NCBI GenBank assembly: GCA_947588655.1 | Contig: CANPYS010000006.1 | Location: 1-61,016, forward strand | DNA length: 61,016 bases | Source: an uncultured Alphaproteobacteria bacterium | Lineage (GTDB): Bacteria; Pseudomonadota; Alphaproteobacteria; RF32; CAG-239 | Direction of reading: 5' to 3' | Shown here: positions 1-29,518 of the stretch, in pieces | Layout of the letters: each line of letters starts with the position of its first letter | Position numbering within the stretch: the stretch's first letter is position 1 | Made by a program: the position numbers and the translations under genes | The notes under the pieces: generated by a model | What the model was told of the DNA's origin: nothing | The model's database searches: none | The model's input: the letters and a program-made list of their open reading frames with translations, nothing else

Positions 1-564
1 GCAAAGAGTAAGATTATCGCAATTGACAATATTGCCGCACCATGAAGATTTAATCGTATCTGTAAAACCTAAATCAGTACAAGAACTGGCCGTTTCACAA
101 CGTTTGAAATTGCTATCAAGCGGGCAGTTTTTATAAGACTTGCAGCCTGGATAGTTTGTATTTTTAGGAATGACATACCCCATATCGGCACAAGTCGGTA
201 CCTTCTGAGCAAAGTCACCGCAAAGATAATAAGTTTTATCATTTTCTATACAAGTTTTTGAGTCTGTGCAACCATCAATAGAGCTTGTTGACGTAAAGCC
301 TAAATCAGCACAAGAGGCTTTATCTTTACCTGGAATACTCAGTGCCTCAAGTTTCACACAACGTGCATAAGAAGAGTCAAAAGGGCAATATAAAGCGTGT
401 TCGCAATCTTTATCGCCACCTTTTTCATAACCCAAAGTTTTGCAGTCACCTGCGGTTGAATGCCCTGGTTCTTGAACGCAAGAATTATCATAATCATTTA
501 AGCACGTTACAGCCAAAGCAGGGTTGGCGATAAGCATCGCCAAAAATAAAATTACTAGTTTCAT
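1..564 (-). CDS. Secreted Cys-rich repeat protein, runs off the window edge (3' end missing)
   Basis: Not in the ORF track. Minus-strand frame from ATG at 564 is open to base 1 (188 codons): MKLVILFLAMLIANPALAVTCLNDYDNSC... with signal peptide, SD AGGAGA, and repeated C-x-[DT]-[LM]-G-[FY]...C...CP.D..Y..C units. Confidence 0.85.
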   Translation of the reverse strand, partial: MKLVILFLAMLIANPALAVTCLNDYDNSCVQEPGHSTAGDCKTLGYEKGGDKDCEHALYCPFDSSYARCVKLEALSIPGKDKASCADLGFTSTSSIDGCTDSKTCIENDKTYYLCGDFAQKVPTCADMGYVIPKNTNYPGCKSYKNCPLDSNFKRCETASSCTDLGFTDTIKSSWCGNIVNCDNLTLC

Positions 565-589
565 CAATAATCTCCTATAAAAAATTGAT

Positions 590-707
590 AATTTAATTGT
601 ACCTTTAAATGATACAATTGTCAAGCTTTTTTATGAGCGTAAAATCAAGCACTTAGATTTTTAAAAATGCCCGAAAAAAATGCACAAAAAAAGGTACGTT
701 TTTTTGA
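590..707 (-). promoter_or_regulatory. Putative invertible promoter module 1, promoter facing the 564 CDS (ON)
   Basis: Minus-strand TTGACA (624-619), 17-nt spacer, TACAAT (601-596). Core bounded by inverted AAAGGTAC/GTACCTTT half-sites at about 599-607 and 688-697. Confidence 0.65.
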
Positions 708-775: not shown

Positions 776-1008
776 CGTCATACTGAGGACTTTAGTCCGA
801 AGAGTGACGTAAAATAAAAATCGTCATTCTGAGGCGGTTTACCGCCGAAGAATCCAGATGGAAAAATATAGCTAATTTGTTGTCCTGGACTCTTCGCTGA
901 CGCTCAGAGTGACGACGGGAGAGGTGTTCTGGACTCTTCGGACTAAAGTCCTCAGAGTGACGACGGGAGGGGGTCTGGACTCTTCGCTGACGCTCAGAGT
1001 GACGGTGG
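776..1008. repeat. Cluster of five dispersed palindromic repeats (CGTCACTCTGAG-hairpin-CGAAGAGTCCAG)
   Basis: Copies at about 776-809, 822-860, 881-918 (inverted), 926-967 (inverted), 974-1008 (inverted). Further copies at 20.8 and 60.6 kb. Confidence 0.85.
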
Positions 1009-1030
1009 AAAATAGCTTAGGGCAACAAAA

Positions 1031-4377: not shown

Positions 4378-4405
4378 AGGTGCTGTCTTTCGGCACCTTT
4401 TTTTA
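4378..4405 (+). terminator. Terminator after rpmG
   Basis: AGGTGC-tgtctttcg-GCACCT followed by T-run. Confidence 0.75.
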
Positions 4406-5341
4406 ATTTTCCTCTTTAGAAGGCCCAAACGCTTTATTGTATTCTCTTTTAACGGTTTCAAGCGAAACATCGGTATAACGTTCGGTGGTGGCAAGTGAGG
4501 CGTGTCCTAAAAGCATTTGAATGGAGCGTAAATCTGTCCCCTCGGCTAAAAGATGCGTTGCAAAAGAATGCCGCAGGGCATGGGGCGTCAATGTATCAGG
4601 TAGGCCCATCACAGCCCGCAACTTTTGCAGATTTCGCTGAATTATCCGCGGACTTAAGCGCTCGCCGCGCGCGCCCACAAATAGTGCCTCACCTTTTTGA
4701 AGCGTATAAGGCACACTTTCAAGATAAGCCGCCACACACGCACGCACAACAGGCAACATCGGGACAAGGCGCTCTTTGTTGCCTTTGCCTTTAATGCGCA
4801 AAAAATCGGACTCTAAATCTGTTTGACCGAAGTTTAAAGAAAGCGCTTCTGATATGCGCAACCCGCATCCGTACAACAAAGACATTACCGCGCGATCGCG
4901 CAAGCCCTGCCAATCGGATTTTGCAAAATGCACGGATTCTTTTAAAACATCTAAGGCGTCCGAAACATCTAAAGCCTTGGGCAAAACCTTGGCGCGACGC
5001 GGGGTGGCAATCAGCCCGACCGCCGAATTTTGCAAAATTTCGTTCTTACGCAAAAAGCGAAAAAAATTCCGAAACGCCGCAATTTCTCGCGCAAGAGAGC
5101 TTTTTTCTATATTTTTGGCGGCACGCGCGCTGATAAATCCGCGAAAATCGCGTATGTCAAGATTTTTCAAAAAGCTTAAACTAACCGTTGTTTCAAAATA
5201 ATTGATAAAAAGCGCTAAATCGCGCGCATAGGCATCTAATGTATGCGCACTGTAGCGGCGTTCGTCTTTCAAAAACAAAAGCCAACGTTGAATGATGCCC
5301 TGAAGCTCGGCATCGGCATTAAATTGAATCGGTTCTTTCAT
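4403..5341 (-). CDS. xerC: Tyrosine recombinase XerC/XerD family
   Basis: LYGCGLRISEAL, HALRHSFATHLL, LLGHASLATTERYTDV catalytic motifs. Confidence 0.85.
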   Translation of the reverse strand: MKEPIQFNADAELQGIIQRWLLFLKDERRYSAHTLDAYARDLALFINYFETTVSLSFLKNLDIRDFRGFISARAAKNIEKSSLAREIAAFRNFFRFLRKNEILQNSAVGLIATPRRAKVLPKALDVSDALDVLKESVHFAKSDWQGLRDRAVMSLLYGCGLRISEALSLNFGQTDLESDFLRIKGKGNKERLVPMLPVVRACVAAYLESVPYTLQKGEALFVGARGERLSPRIIQRNLQKLRAVMGLPDTLTPHALRHSFATHLLAEGTDLRSIQMLLGHASLATTERYTDVSLETVKREYNKAFGPSKEEN

Positions 5342-28552: not shown

Positions 28553-28710
28553 AAGGAAAATCAAGGGATAACGACAAAAATCAACTATCTCAAAAAAACG
28601 TACCTTTAAATGATACAATTGTCAAGTTTTTTTATTGTCGTAAAATCAAGCACTTAGGTTTTTAAAAATGCCCCAAAAAAATGCACATTTAAACGTACGT
28701 TAAAATTAGA
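28553..28710. promoter_or_regulatory. Putative invertible promoter module 2, core inverted relative to module 1
   Basis: Flank matches the reverse complement of about 691-745; core matches 599-686 in the same plus-strand orientation. Half-sites AAACGTACCTTTAAA and TTTAAACGTACGTTAAA. Confidence 0.65.
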
Positions 28711-28753: not shown

Positions 28754-29518
28754 ATGAGTACTAAAGAAGACTTTAATTCCGATATAAAAGATAGCTATGC
28801 TCTGACAGCTGAATTCCGATCTAAGGGTAATCTTGTAAAGACTGATCCGCAAAGTGCGGCGGAAGTGATGAATGAGGTAGAAGATCTGATGAAATCAGAT
28901 CAAAACAACGAATATTCATACAGAGCTGCCTTTGACACTTTGGCTGAGATTATCAAAGTTGATTCAAAATTTGGACAGAAAGCACTTAAATTAACGGCTA
29001 AGGTCATAGAAAAACCACTTTTATCTAAAACAGAAGGTTTTAGATTTGTACCATCTAAAACAGAGGGTTTTAGATTTTTAGGTAAGCTTGTTCAAATTAG
29101 TCCAGAACTTGCACCGGAAGCTTTAAAGCTTATAGAAGGAAACGCCACATCTGGGGGAATCAGTATATCTTCATGTGAAGCGGCTTCTGACGCTTTAAGA
29201 ACTATTGCAGAAATTCGTCCTGATTTGAAAGACAAAGCTTCTCAAACTCTGAAAATAACGGAGCAAGTACAAGACAAAATAACGCCCATTGAGCAGGTAG
29301 AAATTATTCACGGGATTTCACAAAAAGTGTATAGAAATAAAGAAACAGGAAAAGTACGAGCCAGAATTAAAATAAACCCTGATAAACAAGATTTGATTGA
29401 TTCGGCTAAAGACCGAATTGCTGCGAAAACTGCTAAGACCGCAGAAGAACCGGAAAAGCCAACGCCAAGCAACGGTGGCAATGTTCCTCCGATTAATAAT
29501 GGCAACGACGGTCGTTAA
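28754..29518 (+). CDS. Hypothetical alpha-helical protein
   Basis: SD aaaggag, MSTKEDFNSDIKDSYALTAEF...; HEAT-like helical composition. Confidence 0.7.
   Translation: MSTKEDFNSDIKDSYALTAEFRSKGNLVKTDPQSAAEVMNEVEDLMKSDQNNEYSYRAAFDTLAEIIKVDSKFGQKALKLTAKVIEKPLLSKTEGFRFVPSKTEGFRFLGKLVQISPELAPEALKLIEGNATSGGISISSCEAASDALRTIAEIRPDLKDKASQTLKITEQVQDKITPIEQVEIIHGISQKVYRNKETGKVRARIKINPDKQDLIDSAKDRIAAKTAKTAEEPEKPTPSNGGNVPPINNGNDGR

Follow-up and report, generated by a model that had tools for sequence, protein, structure and literature searches.

A candidate Mpi-like genome-wide promoter-inversion system in an uncultured alphaproteobacterium

Does the promoter that faces a gene for a predicted secreted, cysteine-rich protein at the start of this contig lie in a segment of DNA that inverts, and does it stand alone or belong to a larger set of such switches? 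The window analysed here is the whole stretch of 61,016 nucleotides, which is contig C6 of a 1.55-Mb, 55-contig genome (positions on other contigs are given as contig:position). This genome, small and reduced, belongs to an uncultured alphaproteobacterium with relatives among gut bacteria. The original prediction read positions 590-707 as an invertible promoter module, with a promoter on the minus strand enclosed by inverted half-sites and pointing at a secreted Cys-rich protein. The features concerned are as follows, the site boundaries at the left being breakpoints obtained by comparison with the paralogous loci C16:70 and C46:7697.

1-564, minus strand: target gene, its 3' end cut by the contig start; 188 codons readable; predicted secreted Cys-rich product beginning MKLVILFLAMLIANPALAVTC...
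564-562, minus strand: start codon ATG
571-576, minus strand: ribosome-binding site AGGAGA (Shine-Dalgarno)
593-606: left, gene-side recombination site, GTAC centre at 599-602
599-606: left half-site, GTACCTTT
596-601, minus strand: -10 box TACAAT (ATTGTA on the plus strand), straddling the predicted crossover, the CAAT part fixed on the gene side
602-618: spacer of 17 nt between the -35 and -10 boxes
619-624, minus strand: -35 box TTGACA (TGTCAA on the plus strand), within the putative invertible core
601-695: putative invertible core, 95 bp, cut between T and A of each GTAC
687-704: right, far-side recombination site AAAAAAAGGTACGTTTTTTT, GTAC centre at 694-697
690-697: right half-site, AAAGGTAC

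The element at 599-697 and its paralogues

The element consists of inverted repeats around a promoter, upstream of a gene, which is the arrangement that defines an inverton. The boxes TTGACA (624-619) and TACAAT (601-596) with their 17-nt spacer are present to the base, the AGGAGA and the ATG (564) follow the leader as proposed, both enclosing half-sites lie at their places, and the target has a signal-peptide-like start and many cysteines in its readable codons. The claim that the -10 box overlaps the half-site and that inversion would detach the -35 box was also correct, and the overlap proved to be a conserved design.

It is very probable that the element is a phase-variation switch, its 95-bp core being turned round by a site-specific invertase at the two GTAC-centred sites. 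In the ON state, defined as the -35 box facing the gene, the TTGACA of the core would stand 17 nt from TACAAT and the Cys-rich gene (564->1) would be transcribed; the crossover of the left site is placed at its central TA (600-601), so that TACAAT would take its TA from the crossover and its CAAT from the fixed gene-side flank. A flip would bring the core end that has no -35 box next to the gene (OFF) and direct TTGACA at the far flank. Promoter activity, the identity of the acting invertase and phase variation of the protein are all read from sequence, and the step from orientation to expression follows the presence or absence of a -35 box next to the gene. The 82-95 bp found between sites are very short for an invertase synapse, which counts against the model.

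Support comes from paralogous loci. Between C6:599 and C16:70, the gene-side flank is 96.7% identical, and the core is 98.9% identical (94/95) only when inverted, against 59.4% in direct orientation; between C6:599 and C46:7697, the flanks are 98.4 and 91.7% identical and the core 94.7% (90/95), again inverted. When the window core was inverted in silico between the two TA steps, whole-region identity rose from 83.8 to 96.5% for C16 and from 84.1 to 96.1% for C46. Both core orientations between the same flanks were thus found among the paralogous loci and in the assembly of C21 and C27; the window copy was assembled in one orientation only, and it presumably inverts as its paralogues appear to have done.

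Meanwhile, the assembly itself carries footprints of inversion. Its contig ends share exact 77-mers, so the assembly was probably built with k=77, and if both orientations occur in the reads, the flank at a break is predicted to equal 77 minus the length common to the two core ends. Predicted and observed flank lengths were 69 and 69 for C16 (partner C45), 65 and 65 for C33 (partner C3), and 73 and 73 for C21 (partner C27). In the last case, C21:1-77 equals C27:88-164 reversed, one far flank being joined to opposite ends of one core, and the C21 and C27 cores differ very slightly in sequence. The three breaks support two orientations coexisting in the reads, as footprints in the assembly rather than as reads. 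The end of C2 was also considered as an orientation footprint; it departs from the prediction, and a repeat that C2 has in common with C25 accounts for it.

Alternatively, the loci could derive from a MITE- or REP-like dispersed repeat that multiplied along with the gene family, its orientations arising from independent insertion or slow homologous recombination. The high copy number and the cores held in common speak for such a repeat, as do the many contig ends that fall in repeats around genes, with the breaks of C2 and C27 explained in this way. Since both flanks are homologous around an inverted core, however, independent insertion is excluded; at three loci, the breaks are those expected if two orientations coexist; and TTGACA keeps its exact distance of 17 nt from the site in 61/64 elements despite indels in the core, and does so in two other species as well. 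A dispersed repeat is therefore considered very unlikely. Short repeats of the form 'GTCATxCTGAGG...CCGAAGAATCC' adjoin the element at window positions 780-1020, and they also adjoin many other elements, e.g., at C9:53200-53700.

The genome-wide set and its proposed split promoter

The paired-site pattern GTACSTTTN{66,88}AAASGTAC has two matches in the window, at 599-697 and 28600-28698, while 100 dinucleotide shuffles of the window gave a mean of 0.00 and a maximum of 0. The promoter pattern TTGACA-N17-TACNNT likewise has two matches in the window, both at the paired-site elements (mean of 0.09 in shuffles). The second element was cited in the original prediction as an opposite-orientation copy at 28.6 kb, and it is indeed reversed relative to its own downstream gene:

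28600-28698: second element, GTAC sites at 28600-28603 and 28695-28698, core 28602-28696, OFF
28620-28625, minus strand: -35 box TTGACA, directed away from the gene
28754-29518, plus strand: downstream gene, 254 aa, without family match

Genome-wide, 51 exact matches to the paired-site pattern were found, against 0 for a reversed-pattern control. The genome holds at least 66 elements, namely 64 measured in stretches around pattern matches and 2 further ones. The GTAC-to-GTAC distance is 82-84 in 55 elements and 92-95 in 9, with none between (n=64). A perfect TTGACA is present in 62/64 elements and in 61/64 ends exactly 17 nt before the TA of GTAC, while the opposite end of the core usually carries a poorer hexamer at the same position (TTGATG, TTGATA or TTGACG). 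This 17-nt distance is kept while core length varies between 82 and 95, and because of it the -10 hexamer straddles the predicted crossover. The -10 box would accordingly take its TA from the crossover and its remaining four bases from the fixed flank outside, the recombination site splitting the promoter. In the 82-84-bp class, the -10 box is TACGTT or TACCTT, which is poor; promoter strength in this class is uncertain, and this counts against the model.

The same distances can be read in another way, in which a repressor forms a loop between the GTAC palindromes as paired operators, set about 8 or 9 helical turns apart, and controls ordinary fixed promoters that do not invert. The sites are near-palindromic, and spacings of 82-84 and 92-95 with none between lie near integral helical turns. 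Against looping, the spacing in another genus is 85-86, and identical flanks around an exactly inverted core, contig breaks at the base where the orientations become indistinguishable and one locus assembled both ways are left unexplained, so that this reading is regarded as highly improbable.

Inversion, the preferred reading, was followed into relatives. In the sister genome G001, at least 39 matches to the Cys-rich protein family were found, together with 11 elements upstream of family genes; these are GGTACC-centred pairs 83-85 bp apart, and in 11/11 TTGACA lies 17 nt from the TA and faces away from the gene. An apparent absence of sites from this genome under the strict GTAC pattern was an artefact of the pattern, the sites there being GGTACC with TTAAAA flanks. 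In G004, from another genus of the same family, there are 8 elements with different cores and a spacing of 85-86, and a search of this genome gave no match to the Cys-rich family. On one side, the G004 elements carry TACAAT (7/8) or TACGAT, and wherever the flanks read include a start codon, it falls on that side; on the other, 7/8 carry TACCTA. TTGACA or TTGACT stands at 17 nt in 7/8. As an independent case, these elements give the best sign that a -10 box completed across the crossover on the gene side is the working design.

It can be seen above that the reading by promoter inversion gained support from paralogues with both core orientations, three assembly breaks and one locus assembled both ways. 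As far as could be followed, neither a single fixed orientation nor a lack of half-sites in homologous loci, the two outcomes named as speaking against it, was found: GTAC-centred pairs occur in the sister species, and in the second genus too, at other loci. Three features go beyond what had been predicted, namely the number of elements (at least 66) and, as described below, the presence of Mpi-type invertases and a strong bias towards OFF.

Some elements lie close together in pairs (C1:32703 and C1:34258; C22:226 and 482; C23:12003 and 12259; C17:37941 and 38201); if the sites of two neighbours recombined, whole genes could be deleted or inverted. Viral contigs were also searched with the junction patterns, which gave one chance 21-base match within a phage gene and nothing else.

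Target genes and their ON/OFF state

Paralogues of one family coding for secreted Cys-rich proteins make up most of the targets; glycan genes account for some. The window gene has paralogues at C16:203-1624 and on C46, and its protein has no match in Pfam or NCBIfam; in the larger Cys-rich family, a C-terminal stretch is weakly like Lcl_C (27 bits, cut-off 34.9). The element C22:5422 precedes a glycosyltransferase-like gene, and C35:5228 and C18:8048 adjoin other glycan-type genes, these functions being read from sequence.

Among the loci discussed, C6:599 in the window, C7:6476 (related to C6:28600) and C21:74 are ON, and C16:70, C46:7697 and C6:28600 are OFF. In the main Cys-rich family (MKYVLF...), 27 of the 36 scored members have a measured element within 900 bp, most of the remaining 9 lying at contig ends or having been read later; a single one of these 27 elements is ON (C22:7710) and 26 are OFF. 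In the subfamily of the window gene, 1/3 is ON. The excess of OFF, as seen in one assembly, may reflect a switching bias, selection or near-exclusive expression. The near-total OFF state counts against the model, as switching could be rare or selected against.

At C19:5049-5147 (L070:3050-3148), the gene-side site and a TTGACA-17-TACATT promoter facing the gene are kept and the far inverted site is gone; this gene, C19:4442-5035 (minus strand), is a paralogue of the window gene. The C19 promoter looks locked ON.

A tentative extension of the model, which we consider doubtful, is that the recombinase cuts within the -10 box and that the more than 60 split promoters together give near single-gene expression of the secreted Cys-rich family of about 40 members. 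If true, this single-gene expression would be antigenic variation by promoter assembly, new in Alphaproteobacteria.

Candidate recombinases and known systems

Three genes for Mpi-type serine invertases are present in the genome, on C16, C13 and C18. The C16 and C13 enzymes score 298.6 and 279.9 bits, both above the cut-off of 272 bits, a curated equivalog threshold, of NCBIfam NF009949 ('master DNA invertase Mpi family'); the C18 gene (C18:8808-9389, L041) has an in-frame TAA. The GTAC element C18:8048 lies about 670 bp upstream of the C18 invertase gene. In the sister species, the C16 enzyme has a close orthologue (84%) whose surroundings are conserved, with 77-78% nucleotide identity between the invertase regions of C16 and G001; of the three enzymes of this genome, it is the sole one for which this holds. 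For this reason, the intact C16 enzyme is the best candidate for the acting invertase. In the invertase tree, the enzymes of this genome are not joined to those of G004, which has the same sites, and the assignment therefore rests on one sister species. The genome has at least 66 sites of the same class, with no invertase adjoining most of them, and because one site class is used so often, a single invertase acting in trans probably serves all.

Mpi-family invertases over the cut-off were found in 42/108 relatives, all listed ones in the same family as this bacterium and often several per genome. In the sister genome, an Mpi-type invertase gene with an adjacent inverted repeat AACGTTAGATTCTTATA is found at L118 and L189; the repeat, at L189:841-955 with a spacing of about 98 bp, is of a different site class. 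Different invertase paralogues may serve different sites.

Inversion could also be real and due to another recombinase, i.e., XerC/XerD, the phage integrase on C3 or a large serine recombinase. Such enzymes are at hand: the tyrosine recombinases found are XerC (window 4403-5341), XerD and the one phage integrase (C3), and the genome has two large serine recombinases. Nearly all bacteria have XerC and XerD for housekeeping, whereas only few genomes have these sites; the genome encodes intact Mpi-family enzymes that score above the curated threshold, and the C16 enzyme alone of the three has a clear orthologue in the site-sharing sister species. Another recombinase is thus unlikely, although less so than the two readings without site-specific inversion.

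In fimS of Escherichia coli (type 1 fimbriae), a single 314-bp segment is inverted by tyrosine recombinases. As in fimS, promoter orientation would set the ON/OFF state of a surface or secreted product; unlike in fimS, the segments here are far shorter and multi-copy, and a dedicated fim-type recombinase was not found, the tyrosine recombinases being those named above. To our knowledge, Bacteroides is essentially the only group in which promoters are known to be inverted globally through one class of sites. It has been reported that Mpi, the master serine invertase of Bacteroides fragilis, inverts 13 regions including 7 capsule promoters (PMC4747536). The likeness to the Mpi system lies in one class of short inverted sites scattered genome-wide, in putative invertible promoters before surface or secreted genes, and in the Mpi-family serine invertases encoded. 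The differences are that the host is an alphaproteobacterium, that there are at least 66 elements against 13, with segments of 82-95 bp, and that most targets belong to one Cys-rich family with no invertase beside most elements; unlike the TAnnTTTG promoters of Bacteroides, those here are of the TTGACA type with the -10 box straddling the crossover. We have the impression that a split -10 box has been described in no other inverton.

Gut invertons were reportedly surveyed by Jiang et al. in 2019. The elements resemble the gut invertons of PhaseFinder-type surveys (PMC11892184) in being intergenic promoter segments with short inverted repeats near surface genes; the gut inverton reports consulted concern mainly Bacteroidota and other isolates, whereas the present host is an alphaproteobacterium. 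In a genome-wide survey of published sequencing data, inversion signatures were found in 0/4 Alphaproteobacteria (PMC5903667), and among the papers searched, none dealt with invertons together with Azospirillum or gut Alphaproteobacteria. The elements are judged to form an Mpi-like genome-wide promoter-inversion system in Alphaproteobacteria; the kind is known, and the system would be a new variant because host lineage, copy number and the split -10 box differ.

In this uncultured alphaproteobacterium, a reduced genome would thus hold a higher copy number of such switches than Bacteroides, and Mpi-type invertases are widespread in its own family. Because the layout is split, with the -35 box flipping and the -10 box straddling the crossover, a single switch is very compact (82-95 bp), and the fixed geometry of the layout lends itself to direct searches of other genomes and of reads. 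This would allow a read-level test of phase variation in a large secreted protein family of an uncultured lineage.
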